From an uncultured Oscillospiraceae bacterium (GTDB lineage Bacteria; Bacillota; Clostridia; Oscillospirales; Ruminococcaceae), in NCBI GenBank assembly GCA_934463345.1, contig CAKSJL010000005.1, positions 1 through 47,808 of the forward strand: a stretch of DNA of 47,808 nucleotides. Direction: 5' to 3'. How positions within the stretch are numbered: position 1 is the stretch's first letter; each line of letters starts with the position of its first letter. Below, piece after piece: positions 13,264-42,906 of the stretch. The position numbers and the translations under genes were made by a program. The notes below the pieces were generated by a model. That model was given only the letters and a program-made list of their open reading frames with translations. It was not told where the DNA came from and ran no database searches.

Positions 13264-14449
13264 TCAGCTTAAAAGAGAGCGCTTTAATATGATTAAATCA
13301 AATACATTGATTACGCCGTCGCCGTTCATATCAGCAACAGCCGTCAGAATATCCTGGCTTGTCCCGCTGTTTGTCAAAAATTCATTCATAAGGACAGCAT
13401 CAGCTGACGATACTGTTCCGTCGCCGTTTAAATCGCCTATAATTTCAAATTTACGTCCATATTTTTCTGCATAAGCCTGAGCTGTTGAGTTTTCATAGCC
13501 GTAGATTGTGCCATCGAAATAAGATACATTTATTTCAGAATCATATTTGTTTGATATTGTTTCCTTATAATCATATATTTTACAATCCGGATTTCTAATT
13601 ATTATACTTTCAAGATTTATACAATAATCAAATGCATAGTTTCCTATACTTGTTACGCTATCCGGAATATTTATACTTGTAAAGCTTCTACAATTCATAA
13701 ATGCATTGTCACCTATACCTCTCGTTCCGTCCTTTATTTCAACAGTTGTTACATCTTTATCATAATCAACAATCCATTTATCTACATATTTAACACCTGT
13801 CTGACTTTCAAGCAATGCTGTCTTATCAAATGCATTTCTTCCTATACTCGTTACACTATCTGGAATACTTATATTTGTAAGATTTTCACAATAATAAAAT
13901 GCAGCTTCTCCTATACTTGTCACATTATCCGAAATATTTATGCTTGCTAAGCTTGTACATTTACAAAATGCATAATCTCCTATACTTGTCACACTATCTG
14001 GAATTTTTATGTTTGTTAGACTTGTACATTCACAAAATGCATAGTCTCCTATACTTGTCACACCATCTGGAATTTTTATATTTATAAGATTTGTACAAAA
14101 AGAAAATGCACTACCTTCTATAATCGTCACACCATCCGGAATATTTACGTTTGCTAAATTTGTACAATTATAAAATGCTTGCTTTCCTATCGCTGCAACC
14201 TTAAGTCCATCAATCTCGCTCGGAATTTCTACTTCAGTCGCAGATTCATCACAATCTGTAATGCATATATAATCGTATGTTCCGTCGTAATCTTCATCAA
14301 CTTTTTTATATTTCAGGTAATCGCCATAGGAGAGTTCGTCGCTGCTTGAATAGGCGCTGACGCTTATGTCAGAAATTAGAGGCTGTACCCCCCCCCATTG
14401 TGCATATTGCACAAATTGTTGCCGTAATTACTCCAAAAATTTTCTTCAT
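13264..14449 (-). CDS. Secreted BspA-like leucine-rich-repeat protein with C-terminal dockerin; frame interrupted at a G9 tract
   Basis: From the well-placed ATG at 14447-14449 (AAGGAG 9-10 bases upstream, strong promoter) translation gives a convincing signal peptide start, MKKIFGVITATICAICTMGG, then runs into a stop within 10 codons because of nine consecutive G. The next frame, open from about 14412 to 13264, carries the mature protein. Losing one G joins the two into about 394 residues with a cleavage-like ISVSA-YSSS. The mature part has five or more 23-residue LRR_5 repeats (about 13680-14230 in DNA) of the form NCTNLxxIxIPDGVTSIGDYAF. A dockerin follows (DLNGDGTVSSAD and DMNGDGVINVFD), which should dock the protein on a cohesin. 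Either a phase-variable gene in the off state, a recent mutation, or a base-calling error. Confidence 0.85.
13840..14180 (-). repeat. Tandem 69-bp repeats encoding leucine-rich repeats
   Basis: Near-identical units of about 69 bp (23 residues each) recur inside the LRR-dockerin gene. The most similar copies lie between about 13900 and 14110. They are coding repeats of the LRR_5 type and could recombine to change repeat number. Confidence 0.8.
14388..14396 (-). repeat. Homopolymer G9 tract (C9 on plus strand) in signal-peptide coding region
   Basis: Nine G in a row on the coding strand, 52 bases after the start codon. With 8 or 11 G the signal peptide and LRR-dockerin frames join; with 9 they do not. 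See the linked finding. Confidence 0.9.
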
Positions 14450-14490
14450 AATACATTTCTCCTTGCATTTTTTTGTAATATTGTAATTTA

Positions 14491-14561: not shown

Positions 14562-14582
14562 CACCGCACAAATGTGCGGCAT
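14562..14582 (-). terminator. Intrinsic terminator after the small conserved gene
   Basis: On the minus strand TGCCGCAC pairs with GTGCGGTG around a short loop and is followed by TTTTTTGTT. Confidence 0.8.
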
Positions 14583-14595
14583 TTTTATTCAAGCA

Positions 14596-14877
14596 TTAAT
14601 TTTTAACAGTTCTCCTGAGCCATGCGTTCGCAAGATCCAGCGCCTCATAAAGGCTCTCCTTCTCGCTGCTCTTTGTGATGGCCTTGTTCGGCGGGAGACT
14701 CAGATCTGTTGACATCTGATATACCTTTATTTTGCTTGCGACCTCCAGGTCCTTGATCTTCTTCTTCTGAAGAATCTGAAGCATCACAACATAATCGTCG
14801 GTCATGTTTCCGTAGTAAATAACATTATCATGTCTGACAAGCGGATATCCCTTGTAAGTAAAAAAACTGCTGCTCAT
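14596..14877 (-). CDS. Small conserved-looking cytosolic protein of unknown function
   Basis: A 93-residue protein starting MSSSFFTYKGYPLVR, with an AGGAGG site 6 bases before the ATG at 14877. Upstream codons are open for another 11 residues but have no ribosome binding site. It has no signal peptide or membrane segment. The end (SLYEALDLANAWLRR) looks like an amphipathic helix; the first half looks like short beta strands (YPLVRHDNVIYYGNM). The style resembles small conserved proteins I have seen in Clostridia, but I cannot name a domain or function. It has its own terminator and is probably monocistronic. I see no clear promoter in 14878-15091; a TTTACA/TATATG pair with poor spacing is the best candidate. 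Confidence 0.75.
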   Translation of the reverse strand: MSSSFFTYKGYPLVRHDNVIYYGNMTDDYVVMLQILQKKKIKDLEVASKIKVYQMSTDLSLPPNKAITKSSEKESLYEALDLANAWLRRTVKN

Positions 14878-15091
14878 AATATTCCTCCTTCTTGGGGCAA
14901 TTATGTGCAATAAATGAGGAGTCAGACACCGCAGCTTTTGGCGTAACTGTTCCTCTTCCGGACATTTTTCGTCTGTCGAATGTGCCGGATATTGTCTGAA
15001 TTGCCTTAAATGTCATATATCAGTGTATGTCTGATGTAAACACGCTTTGTTTATTTTAACACATCTGTGCTGCGCCTGGTGTCGAAAAAGG

Positions 15092-29809: not shown

Positions 29810-30244
29810 TCAGGACATATTGAGTATTTTCTGCCATCTCTCCTCATGCGTTCCGGAGGTTATAAGATATCGTGCAACATTTACAGCGTCATAAAGGTCA
29901 ACGCTTCCGCTAAGGTTTGTATCAGACATTGCAAAACCGAGAGAGCTTTCAAAACCCTCCGAAGCGATCCCCATGATATACTTTGCTATTGCAACAGCAT
30001 CATAAAGTGAGATATCTCCGCTTTCATCTGCATCTCCTCTTACTCCTATACCTATAGGTACAACTGCGGCAGTCTGTCCGTCAGCAATTATATTTACCTT
30101 ATAAGGTGTTGTGTCATTGCTTATAAGTCCGCTTTCGCCGACGCTGAAATCTATAAGCGAAAATGCGTCAATACCGAATGTCAGAAAAGCCACAGAGGCA
30201 GATACTGTACATGCCAGCATTTTTAACGTCTTTTTAATCTTCAT
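29810..30244 (-). CDS. Small secreted dockerin-only protein
   Basis: A 144-residue protein starting at the ATG at 30244 (AAGGAGAG 6 bases upstream). A signal peptide (about 1-28, LKMLACTVSASVAFLTFGIDAFS) is followed by only about 40 residues (SLIDFSVGESGLISNDTTPYKVNIIADGQTAAVVPIG) and then a full dockerin (about 70-130) with the duplicated loops DADESGDISLYDAV and DTNLSGSVDLYDAV. There is no catalytic or binding module I recognise. Its job could be to cap cohesins, or to attach a short peptide to the scaffold. It is transcribed away from the solute-binding protein gene. Confidence 0.85.
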   Translation of the reverse strand: MKIKKTLKMLACTVSASVAFLTFGIDAFSLIDFSVGESGLISNDTTPYKVNIIADGQTAAVVPIGIGVRGDADESGDISLYDAVAIAKYIMGIASEGFESSLGFAMSDTNLSGSVDLYDAVNVARYLITSGTHEERWQKILNMS

Positions 30245-30369
30245 AAGCCTCTCCTTTCCGGCATGCGCCAGTCTATAGCAATCCAATAAAACAGCATAAG
30301 ACAATATGTAATCCAAGTTGTCAGATTATGTTTCAGAATTTTGCTGGTCTGCTGTAGTTCACTGCTTAT

Positions 30370-38840: not shown

Positions 38841-38982
38841 TATTTATGTATAGGAACGATTATTTTGTATTGCTTCTGCTTCACTGTACTCAGATTTCAC
38901 CTTGGAATATCAGCACTCTGTAAATGTTAATGCAAATACAAAATATATCAAATATTTTTCCGACAAACAAGGAGGTAGTTCT

Positions 38983-41055
38983 ATGAAACATTACGCAAAA
39001 AAAGCCCTGTCATTACTGCTGTCGGCAGGTACAATTCTGTTATCCGTTCCTTTCATAAATGCTCATGCAGCTCAGGAAATGTGGCTTGAAGGAGAACAAA
39101 ACGGATTTAAGTATAAGATACAGCTGAATTACGGATATGTTGAAATAACCGGATATGACGCAGATAAAACAGGGGTTGTGGAAATTCCTGCCGAAATCAG
39201 CGGCAATCCCGTAACAACTATCGGATATGCAGCATTTCGTGGCTGCGGAACAGTAAACACTTCTTCCGACTATACGCATGGCTACTCAGGCTGCGGAATA
39301 ACGGAAATCATTATCCCTGACAGCGTAACCACAATAAAAGATTGTGCATTTGAAAACTGCGAAAACCTGGTTAAAATTCATTTTCCTTCAGGTCTGAAAG
39401 ACTTTTACGGAACTGAGGACGGCAGATTCAGTGGCTCATGCATCGGATATGCTTCATGGATCAAGGGCTGTAGTAATCTAAAAGAGTACACAATCAGCAG
39501 CGATAATCCGTATTACAAGTCTGTAGACGGAATTATATACAGCAAGGACGGCAAAACGCTCGGTCCTGTTCCACTGGCTGTTTCCTACGATTCCATAGAC
39601 CTTGACGGAATTTCATCAATTGGCGACTTTGCTTTCAGCAGTCATAGTGACATGAAAGGTGACATTGAAATACCATCGCATATAACCTCTTTAGGAAATT
39701 ATGCGTTTTACGGATGCGGAGCAGATTTTTACTCAGATTATGAAGCGCCTATAAATATCCTGCTGAACGAAGGTCTGACATCGATCGGTGAATACAGTCT
39801 TGCAAATATAGGATTCCTGAAAGAAATTGATTTGCCGGATTCTCTTGTTTCATTAGGAAAAGGCGCTCTGGCTGAGGATCGTTCTATTGAAACAGTTGTA
39901 GTTCCTCCGAATGTAACCGTAATACCTGACTCATTTCTTGAGGACTGCTACAACATAGAAAGCGTTGAGCTGCCGGAAGGAATCACAGACATCGGCGATT
40001 ATGCATTTCATGGTTTTATAAAAATGAATTCAATCAAGCTGCCGTCAACTCTTGAAACAATTGGCAAAGGCGCTTTTATGCCGCTTTCGGCATTTGAGGA
40101 TGATGAAGGACTTTTTTATATCAGCATTCCTGACTCTGTTGAATATATTGGAGAAAAAGCATTTGCCTATAACAAAAATTTAGGAGGTGTAAAGCTGTCC
40201 AAAAATACAAAAAAGATTGAACCTGATACTTTCACTGAGTGCGGAATCATAAGTCTTGTCATTCCGGAAGGGGTTACTGAAATATGCGAAAGAGCATTTC
40301 AGCAAAACTCTCTTGTTTCGCTGAAGCTGCCTGATACACTTGTTAAAATCGGACCTGCCGCATTTAAGAATGGCTTTGTATATGACGAAATGGAAGGAAA
40401 CAAATCGGTTATTATTCCTGACAGCGTTACAGAAATCGGCGCCGGCGCTTTTAGCGGATGTTTTCTAAGTGATATAAAGCTTTCATCCAATCTGAAATCA
40501 TGCGGTTTTCTGGTCGTATCAGGATGCAATCTTTCTTCACTCGAAATTCCTGAGGGAGTAGAAACACTGATCGGACCTACAGTCATGGACACTGACAAAA
40601 CCACCAGAATTTATCTTCCGAAGAGCCTTAAAGAGCTTTCACCTATTGCAATTGCAAAAAGCGGATACGGCACCCTCACTAACAACAGTGCGCCTTATGA
40701 AATTGATTCATACCAGTTTTACGGCGAAAGTATAATAGATGAGATATATTTTGCCGGAACTGAACAACAGTGGAATGCCCTTACAAAGAACTGGAATCTG
40801 GAAGAATATTATTCAGATTCATCCGTTATGGACAATGTAAAGATTTATTTCAACGCTTCTGTGGGAAGTAATATTATGGGCGATGCAAACGCAGATGGTA
40901 TCTTTAATATCGCAGATATTGTTATGATGCGTAATTATATGCTCGGTCAGGGCAGACTGCTCTGCACAGAAGCAGCTGACCTGAATTCAGACGGCAAAGT
41001 TGATATATTTGATTTCTGTCTGATGAGACGTACATTGCTTGCGAATGGCAATTAG
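38983..41055 (+). CDS. Secreted BspA-like leucine-rich-repeat protein with C-terminal dockerin
   Basis: A 690-residue protein starting at the ATG at 38983 (AAGGAGG 6 bases upstream). The signal peptide is MKHYAKKALSLLLSAGTI plus about 10 residues, ending in NAHA. About 16 LRR_5 repeats follow (VTTIGYAAFRGC, VTTIKDCAFENC, ITSLGNYAFYGC, LETIGKGAFMPL and so on; about 55-620), more diverged than those of the gene at 13.3 kb. The C-terminus is a dockerin (DANADGIFNIADIVMMRNYML and DLNSDGKVDIFDFCLMRRTLL). BspA-type LRR proteins bind host or food surfaces; a dockerin would place this one on a cohesin scaffold. The TAG stop is followed, in the same frame, by a xylanase remnant. Confidence 0.92.
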   Translation: MKHYAKKALSLLLSAGTILLSVPFINAHAAQEMWLEGEQNGFKYKIQLNYGYVEITGYDADKTGVVEIPAEISGNPVTTIGYAAFRGCGTVNTSSDYTHGYSGCGITEIIIPDSVTTIKDCAFENCENLVKIHFPSGLKDFYGTEDGRFSGSCIGYASWIKGCSNLKEYTISSDNPYYKSVDGIIYSKDGKTLGPVPLAVSYDSIDLDGISSIGDFAFSSHSDMKGDIEIPSHITSLGNYAFYGCGADFYSDYEAPINILLNEGLTSIGEYSLANIGFLKEIDLPDSLVSLGKGALAEDRSIETVVVPPNVTVIPDSFLEDCYNIESVELPEGITDIGDYAFHGFIKMNSIKLPSTLETIGKGAFMPLSAFEDDEGLFYISIPDSVEYIGEKAFAYNKNLGGVKLSKNTKKIEPDTFTECGIISLVIPEGVTEICERAFQQNSLVSLKLPDTLVKIGPAAFKNGFVYDEMEGNKSVIIPDSVTEIGAGAFSGCFLSDIKLSSNLKSCGFLVVSGCNLSSLEIPEGVETLIGPTVMDTDKTTRIYLPKSLKELSPIAIAKSGYGTLTNNSAPYEIDSYQFYGESIIDEIYFAGTEQQWNALTKNWNLEEYYSDSSVMDNVKIYFNASVGSNIMGDANADGIFNIADIVMMRNYMLGQGRLLCTEAADLNSDGKVDIFDFCLMRRTLLANGN

Positions 41056-42906
41056 CAGTATAAACAAGGCAGAAGTCTTGAAAATTACATTAAAAACCTT
41101 ATGGAAACCCTCGCCGAGGAATATCCTGATGTTGAATTCTATGCCTGGGACGTTGTAAACGAGGCTTTCTCCGAACAGGGTACAATGCGTGAGGCAGGCT
41201 CCAGCAAGGTCGTTTCCGGTCAGTCAACATGGGTGCAGGTATTCGGGGACGATTCGTTTATGAACTATGCATTCAAATTTGCAAGAATGTATGCGCCGGA
41301 GGGCTGCAAGCTTTTCTACAACGACTATAACGAATATTCACCAAAAAAGCGTGACGGAATCTATAATAAACTTAAAGAACTTGTCGCTGAAGGAAATATT
41401 GACGGCGTTGGTATGCAGTCGCACATCGGCATGAGCTATCCGTCAACAGAGCTTTATGAAGAAGCTTTCAGAAAGTATAACGAGCTTGGTCTGGAGATTC
41501 ATGTAACTGAGCTTGACATTGACCAGAAATCAAACTCACAGGAAGCACAGCTTGAACTGGCACAGCGCTATCAGGATGTATTCAGACTCTACAAAAAGCT
41601 TGTAAATGATGGCGTTAATATCACAGCAGTTATTACCTGGGGAATTTAAGATAACAACTCCTGGATCGGCGGATACCCTAACCTCTTTGACGCAGACTAT
41701 CAGGCAAAGGACGCTTTCTATGCAGTAGCAGATACAGGCATGGAAATACAGAAGATAAAGACAGCAAATGCTCTGAGCTTTGACGGAACTGATATGGATT
41801 TTGAGAAAGCATTTAAAATTCAGAAAGAAAATGAAATAGGAAGCGCAGGTTCATTCAAGGCTGTATGGAACAAAAACAGTGTAACACTTAGAATAATCTC
41901 TGGCATTGATGGAACTGCAACAGTTATTTTCAGTAATTCTGACGGCACAACAACTGAAAAAACAGCAGATGTAAAGAAAAATGAAAGTCAGGATATAACC
42001 ATTGACCTTTCAGAAATAAAAAACGGCGGATCGGCAGATATGGAAATTATTATGAGTCCTGCCTTCGGAAAGAATGTCCTCTGGAACACACTCAACTACA
42101 AGAACGAGTATGTATTCGGGAAGCTTTATTTCCTTTCGCAGCCTCTTACAGCAGAAGCTGCTCTTGCATCCAGTGCACCAGTCATTGACGGAACTGTTGA
42201 TGATATCTGGCAGAACGCCTCACCTATTGATATAAATAAATATACTATGGGCAAGGATGGCGCTTACGGTACAGCAAAAATGCTCTGGGACGGGGACTGT
42301 ATTTACGTTCTTGTTGATGTAAAGGACAAGAAGCTGAGCAAGGCAAGCGCAAACGCATACGAACAGGACACTGTTGAGATATTCCTTGACGAAAACAATG
42401 GCAAAACCTCTACTTATGAAGCAGACGATGTCCAGCTGAGAATCAACTATGACAACGAAGTTACGATAACTGACGGTAAATCCGCAGACGGTTATATAAC
42501 AGCCGCAAAAACAACAAGCGATGGATACATTGTCGAAGCTGCAATACCTTACACGATAAGCCCGTTTAGCGCAGACCAGGTTGTCGGATTTGATGTTCAG
42601 ATTAACGATGACGGCGATGGTGAGGGCAAGAGAACAGGCATTGCCAACTGGAGCGATCTCACAGGTCAGGGTTACATCAACACCTCCGGCTTTGGTGTGC
42701 TTGAATTAAAAAGCGGTTCAGCATCAGCAGTCAAGGGCGATATAAACCTTGACGGAAAGGTAAATACAGCAGACCTTGTTCTTCTCCAGAAATATCTGGT
42801 TAACGCTGTAAAGACTCTCAACAGCGCTACAGCAGCCGATATTAACGAAGATAATACAGTAAATGTATTCGATGCAGTACTCCTGAGAAGCGAGTTTCTT
42901 AAATAA
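41056..42906 (+). pseudogene. Broken GH10 xylanase-CBM9-dockerin gene
   Basis: The frame opens directly after the LRR gene's stop and reads QYKQGRSLENYIKNL and then the GH10 core. The acid/base Glu (AWDVVNEAF) and the nucleophile Glu (HVTELDI) are both present, but the N-terminal barrel strands and signal peptide, over 100 residues, are missing. After TWGI a single TAA (41647-41649) interrupts the frame where GH10 enzymes read WG-x-x-D-x-x-SW; the next codons give DNNSW. The frame then stays open to 42906: a linker domain, a CBM9-like xylan-binding module (about 42175-42710) and a dockerin (DINLDGKVNTAD, DINEDNTVNVFD). An ATG at 41740 could start the last 388 residues but has no ribosome binding site. 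Most likely a decaying gene. Confidence 0.88.

Follow-up and report, generated by a model that had tools for sequence, protein, structure and literature searches.

A G9 tract within the signal-peptide codons of a clostridial LRR-dockerin gene as a probable phase-variation locus

Organisation of the LRR-dockerin locus

The window, a stretch of 47,808 nucleotides from an uncultured Oscillospiraceae bacterium (contig CAKSJL010000005.1), carries on its minus strand a gene in which the start of a signal peptide and the body of a leucine-rich repeat (LRR) and dockerin protein lie in different reading frames, with a run of nine G between them (Table 1). The leader frame reads MKKIFGVITATICAICTMGGGTASNF from its ATG, while the body frame continues for 373 codons after the tract, beginning GGVQPLISDISVSAYSSSDELSYG, and the two are one base out of register at G9. 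An additional ATG at 14456 lies in the third frame. Sequence reading, translation and profile searches confirm the arrangement given in a preliminary description of this DNA, namely a promoter, ribosome-binding site and signal-peptide start in one frame, then G9 and LRR-dockerin in another. The long LRR-dockerin frame also stands, although its length, put there at about 390 codons, is 382 from the mechanical GTG start and less when counted after the tract.

The dockerin is full length (52.7 bits for PF00404 against a cut-off of 22.9, covering profile positions 2–57 of 57), and the LRR_5 repeats qualify the window product as a BspA-type LRR protein. Because the signal peptide is out of frame with this product, the window allele as it stands is not classed as a secreted cellulosomal protein. 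Synthesis of a cytoplasmic protein from the internal GTG (14412) was considered and rejected, as the nearest GGAG lies 18 bases upstream, judged by eye to be too far for the usual spacing; the start-site script scanned sites 20 bases or more from the tract.

Perfect promoters number two among the 12 promoter-like sites of any quality there, and sites of any quality show no excess over shuffled sequence (12 versus 8.0 ± 3.1). The hairpin upstream weakly suggests that the LRR-dockerin gene is probably transcribed alone; terminator-like sites number one, versus 0.8 in shuffles.

Table 1. Features of the window locus, with coordinates in the window, and the G9-gated signal peptides located in genus genomes (genome: contigs).
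Feature	Position	Strand	Details
Hairpin	14564–14579	T tail on +; T run also 3' on −	Between upstream ORF 14596–14910 and LRR-dockerin gene
Sigma-70-type promoter	14519–14491	−	TTGACA-17-TATAAT; 12/12 consensus bases, TG before −10
Shine-Dalgarno AAGGAG	14464–14459	−	9 nt 5' of ATG 14449; sequence reading and start-site script
Leader frame	14449–14369	−	26 codons; signal-peptide start MKKIFGVITATICAICTM, then GGG and early stop (stop codon 14371–14369); three-frame translation
Body frame	13264–14412	−	382 aa from mechanical GTG start; signal-peptide end GGVQPLISDISVSA, LRR region, dockerin
G9 tract (C9 on + strand)	14388–14396	−	Between leader and body frames
Best LRR_5 (BspA-type) stretch	13819–14193	−	Body residues 74–198; PF13306, E 1.4e-58
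Type I dockerin	13270–13437	−	Body residues 326–381; PF00404 (Dockerin_1), E 4.9e-14
G9-gated signal peptides	G005: C14, C26, C86, C107, C159, C178; G009: C336; G003: C108, C139		

The tract is the sole G/C run of at least 7 in the window, where runs of length 1 to 6 number 12644, 2905, 327, 53, 8 and 1; extrapolation of this decay within the window predicts approximately 0.0025 runs of 9 or more. The G7 word is not significant in dinucleotide-preserving shuffles (mean 1.27; 17 of 100 shuffles reach the observed three overlapping matches). Tract length by itself is only suggestive, and the real evidence is its recurrence in related genes.

Further dockerin genes occur in the window. A second LRR-dockerin gene (38902–41055, plus strand) has its signal peptide in frame (MKHYAKKALSLLLSAGTILLSVPFINAHAAQ) and carries no G tract. 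It is adjoined by a gene encoding a CBM9 domain and a dockerin in one protein (41740–42906, plus strand). In addition, a 168-codon frame at 29810–30316 (minus strand) includes a dockerin-like stretch at 29861–30067, matched by tblastn with the database homologues P0011, P0013 and P0122.

Homologues in protein databases

Among 5.8 billion proteins searched, 7992 homologues were obtained, 120 of them listed. The window's own product forms a cluster of 2 sequences found on 3 contigs, possibly one sample assembled more than once. Nine homologue sequences, the window's own included, were read, and these do not constitute a sample for ON/OFF rates. P0003 begins MYYEENFWSNYGNNLCNMHNGGVQPLISDISVSA, which corresponds to the window leader in the third frame, so that the protein implies a tract of 7 G in the OFF state. 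P0122 begins MKKIIGVITAIICAICTTGGGVQPLISDISVSA, the leader joined to the body, and as a protein implies 10 or 11 G and the ON state. In P0011 and P0013 the leader is joined without a Gly run, the signal peptide of P0011 being in frame. A protein search with the N-terminal region matched the window's own protein and P0122 only, and a protein-database search with a tract-gene body from genome G005 gave no match.

Recurrence of tract-gated signal peptides in the genus

Relatives were reached through the neighbouring DUF4340 gene, which led to four metagenome-assembled genomes (49–77% identity) and hence to a genus of 11 genomes, a set with one genome per species that lies apart from the window's own genome. 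The LRR and AdhE genes had no match in the DUF4340-linked flank (8.7–10 kb) of the four relatives, placing orthologues at the window's own locus beyond comparison. Across the genus set, the pattern of a non-G base followed by eight G occurred at 30 places in 8 of the 11 genomes, and all 30 loci were read. Nine of these runs sit in the signal peptides of LRR-dockerin genes (Table 1); each is exactly G9 and each leaves its gene out of frame. A search based on the domain C-terminal to the signal peptide added three tract genes, two on contig G003:C69 with G6 and G7 and one on G011:C110 with G7. The preliminary description had suggested looking for other LRR-dockerin genes with poly-G near the start, and 12 were thus found in four genus genomes (G003, G005, G009 and G011); the arrangement was not found in the other 7 of the 11.

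All 13 tract genes, counting that of the window, are out of frame while keeping their starts, ribosome-binding sites and signal peptides. Tract lengths are 6, 7 or 9, with exactly G9 in 10 of the 13; these differences lie between family members, each locus being represented by a single length. The length class that would join the frames divides the genes into two groups, ten against three. Immediately 3' of the tract, G(V/T/A)QPLI is present in 8 of the 13 genes and as a variant in four (G005:C86, G005:C178, G003:C69b and G011:C110), with none in G005:C159. A family-wide search for GGGGGGGTACAGCC matched G005 only, 1 of 297 genomes in a sample that does not include G009.

LRR_5 repeats were identified in all 13 bodies and Dockerin_1 in 12, the exception being the G009 body, which runs off its contig. 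The bodies extend for 373–1184 codons without stops. Values of dN/dS were 0.10–0.45 across 10 N-terminal pairs and 0.00–0.14 across 9 dockerin pairs, from 19 hand-chosen pairs that share genes and omit the G009 and G011 bodies, two of them being near synonymous saturation (0.71–0.73). Apart from their frame, the genes appear intact and look alive, as if under selection. Recombination with ON paralogues could contribute by homogenising the bodies, which would weaken the argument for purifying selection.

The cohesin domain was above cut-off in 11 of the 11 genus genomes (the window's own genome lies outside this set), making a docking partner plausible. A cohesin inside one of the tract genes themselves (G005:C86, locus L139) was considered and not confirmed: two profile matches exceeded the cut-off, and hmmscan of the body gave none. 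Were that cohesin real, the switch would also govern a protein resembling a scaffoldin.

Association between tract and reading frame

The domain search yielded 90 places, all of which were read; 14, mostly internal domains, were set aside because their frame either ran without a stop to the edge of the stretch or stayed open over more than 100 codons upstream, leaving 76 that were scored. At a contig end, one of those set aside (L088) has a start resembling that of a signal peptide. Where a run of at least six G lay just before the domain, 10 of 10 places were out of frame as judged from their start sites, versus 2 of 66 without such a run. For the first 80 places (10/10 versus 2/60), Fisher's test gave p = 1.7e-10, or 9.7e-10 without L061. 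The body frame of that locus (G005:C14) reaches the edge without a stop, and under the set-aside rule the locus would be dropped and the count reduced to 9/9; its body frame clears the hydrophobic threshold, while its start and ribosome-binding site lie in another frame. When the hydrophobic-segment rule was applied alone, ignoring start sites, 9 of 10 tract-bearing places failed against 3 of 60 (p = 3.2e-8).

Among places free of a tract, 64 of 66 were in frame, L083 falling slightly below the hydrophobic threshold, and the two out of frame were L105 and L079, the latter also being truncated. A close comparison is offered by genome G005, where the out-of-frame gene on C107 reads TTTTC-G9-TACAGCC and in-frame paralogues with the same leader (L068 and L054) have the interrupted sequences TTTTCAGGAGTACAGCC and TTTTCGGGTGGACAGCC. 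A fixed non-homopolymer sequence at this point in the same protein had been put forward in the preliminary description as evidence that would tell against a switch. Tract-free members in frame do exist, but they are paralogues.

A probable phase switch and its alternatives

We consider it likely that the G9 locus of the window is a translational contingency (phase-variation) locus. Slipped-strand mispairing at replication would reversibly add or remove G within the signal-peptide codons and shift the frame, and only certain tract lengths would join the signal peptide to the LRR-dockerin body and permit export. At G9, the ribosome would stop after 26 codons and nothing would be exported. In the ON state, a cohesin of the cell's scaffoldin would retain the secreted protein, which may act as an adhesin or in surface recognition. 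The family appears to be wired alike in at least 4 of the 11 genus genomes and would rest OFF at its commonest tract length, so that each LRR-dockerin protein would be displayed by a minority of cells within mixed ON/OFF populations. The phase switch had been proposed in the preliminary description for the window gene; it gains support from the 12 further genes, tract lengths of 6, 7 and 9, two frame relations and a joined homologue.

An unbiased switch would be expected to be ON in one gene in three, and the observed 0 of 13 tract genes departs from this (p = 0.005), as does 1 of 15 when P0003 (OFF) and P0122 (ON) are included (p = 0.019). With the other genus tracts classified by hand, the ON share is 4 of 18, no marked departure from one in three (p = 0.23); in this count the genes for the FkbM methyltransferase, acyltransferase and radical SAM protein and that on G003:C82 are in frame and hsdS is not. 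Among the genus runs outside this count, many are G8 or lie close to the end of a contig. It follows that the excess of OFF genes belongs to the LRR-dockerin family, and 13 OFF genes of 13 suggest a default-off, rarely-on design. In Campylobacter jejuni, according to the available part of PMC8355987, poly-G tracts tend to gain units at G8 and to lose them from G11 upwards, which keeps them mainly at G9 and G10. A similar bias between insertion and deletion would account for the many G9 tracts here. At the same time, exactly nine G in 10 of 13 tracts is little spread for a hypermutable sequence and counts against a switch.

The broader reading, to which we give even chances, is that several species of a clostridial genus keep an LRR-dockerin repertoire behind signal-peptide G tracts as a default-off phasome, so that each protein would appear in rare cells only, and a clonal population would present a shifting mosaic of docked LRR proteins, with variation in what is attached to the cellulosome. 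Under this reading, G005 alone would hold six G9 genes, and the bacteria concerned are presumably non-pathogenic and fibre-associated.

The best surviving alternative, a fixed frameshift, holds that the runs slipped once and that the genes are dying, the tracts being mutation hot spots with no switching function. It would fit the out-of-frame state of all 13 tract genes and the short or interrupted runs of their in-frame paralogues. Nevertheless, it is improbable given the long stop-free bodies and dN/dS of 0.00–0.45 in the pairs compared, the retention of start, ribosome-binding site and signal peptide, and the joined homologue P0122. In addition, a G9 run can by its nature slip in both directions, which argues against a permanently fixed state.

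RNA slippage is the main rival that would also account for the OFF excess. RNA polymerase slipping on G9, or ribosomes shifting there, would give a constant low output of full-length protein with the DNA unchanged, which would explain both 13 out-of-frame genes of 13 and the prevalence of exactly G9, and the presence of both frame relations is compatible with two-way slippage by the polymerase. Members with G6 and G7 are also out of frame, however, and such runs are probably below the length threshold for strong polymerase slippage. Close homologues moreover differ in tract length, as implied by their proteins, and two opposite frame relations oppose programmed ribosomal frameshifting in one direction; we therefore regard RNA slippage as very unlikely. 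A programmed frameshift in a fixed direction is disfavoured for the same reason, as two frame relations exist.

An assembly or sequencing error, by which the true tract would have another length and the gene would simply be ON, was named in the preliminary description as the main alternative, and although homopolymers are error-prone and the contigs of the window product may re-assemble one sample, it is the least credible of the three. Such an error would have to strike 13 genes of this family, spread over five assemblies (those of the window, G003, G005, G009 and G011), with two frame relations, and include tracts of 6 and 7 G. It would yet have to spare both the tract-free members and, in G004, the in-frame G9 tracts of the genes for the FkbM methyltransferase, the acyltransferase and the radical SAM protein. 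Given two frame relations, a single base-calling bias is insufficient as an explanation.

Comparison with known systems

Phase variation through poly-G tracts is known in pathogens. In Neisseria, phase-variable surface proteins have a homopolymer near the gene start, and poly-G is also found in hsdS and in promoter spacers. As in Neisseria, the tracts described here lie close to where a surface-protein gene begins, and the genus also has poly-G in hsdS (G003:C90) and in a promoter spacer (G005:C102). In contrast, Neisseria belongs to another phylum and has another type of envelope, and the protein encoded here has a dockerin for attachment to cohesins.

The likeness to C. jejuni, as far as the available part of PMC8355987 goes, lies in a G tract within the coding frame, a frame change of one unit, lengths of mainly G9–G10 and several such genes per genome. 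C. jejuni differs in being a Gram-negative pathogen, said in the same part of that paper to lack functional mismatch repair, whereas MutS1 was above cut-off in 9 of the 11 genus genomes here. Mismatch repair is therefore probably present in the genus, and slippage may proceed at a lower rate than it does in C. jejuni; an origin of the tracts in missing mismatch repair is likewise unsupported. The genes here further differ from those of C. jejuni in forming one family, in having the tract within the signal peptide and in being OFF without exception.

The protein architecture itself has a precedent in Ruminococcus flavefaciens FD-1, for which the available part of PMC2930009 describes SIGN-LRR-Doc cellulosomal proteins, with 28 leucine-rich-repeat entries in the module table. 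Signal peptide, leucine-rich repeats and dockerin are thus combined in one protein there as here, while homopolymers and phase variation go unmentioned in that part of the paper, and 'frameshift' occurs 0 times in its text. Phase variation of dockerin proteins was likewise not described among the literature matches listed, in a search that most subscription journals and all preprints lay outside, nor in the available parts of PMC3796261, PMC13317340 and PMC12413058. For a signal-peptide-gated gene family in Clostridia, no prior description of this combination was found in the literature as searched. Among gut commensals, Bacteroides thetaiotaomicron is cited in the available part of PMC12413058 for phase-variable capsules and lipoproteins, and 153 genera with long simple repeats appear in the table of a review.

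If the phase-variation reading is true, the parts docked on a cellulosome-type scaffold would vary randomly from cell to cell. The occurrence of several poly-G loci of contingency type in one genome would also make the question testable outside pathogens, in presumably commensal Clostridia. In practice, the secreted repertoires of such bacteria are under-counted, because databases hold such genes (P0002 and P0003) as proteins without a signal peptide.

Other poly-G tracts in the genus and family

Other poly-G tracts of the genus lend support to the phase-switch reading in that they lie at classical contingency positions. On contig G003:C90 (L152, near 1984, reverse strand), a G10 splits a type I hsdS gene, both halves of which match Methylase_S (PF01420), and the gene looks like a phase-variable specificity subunit. 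In-frame G9 tracts occur in genes for an FkbM methyltransferase, an acyltransferase and a radical SAM protein (L150, L151 and L153; G004:C30 at 9642 and 33276, and G004:C12). Contingency control is common among genes for FkbM methyltransferases and acyltransferases.

Promoter spacers form a further class. On contig G005:C102, a G9 lies within the 18-base spacer of a perfect promoter, and among the loci collected, five near-perfect promoters with G9 between −35 and −10 were identified, at L043, L172, L179, L189 and L205, with spacers of 18, 17, 15, 19 and 18 bases (genomes G005, G314, G072, G054 and G072, of which G054 and G072 belong to the 297-genome family sample). A G tract in the promoter spacer is the layout of promoter-type phase variation in Neisseria. 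Two similar LRR-type genes have a G7 (L126, G009:C18) and a G6 (L127, G002:C34) located 149 bases before the domain and 5' of the start, representing a length difference between two species in a possible promoter tract.

Exact G9 tracts are numerous in some relatives, with 11 in G054, 10 in G304, 9 in G338 (four of them in a stretch of about 9 kb on contig C2) and 18 in G046 (many at contig ends). These genomes possibly have large phasomes; the loci read comprise 11 of 11 in G054, 5 of 9 in G338 and none in G304 or G046. In G054, the tract has the context C-G9-T in 9 of the 11 cases.
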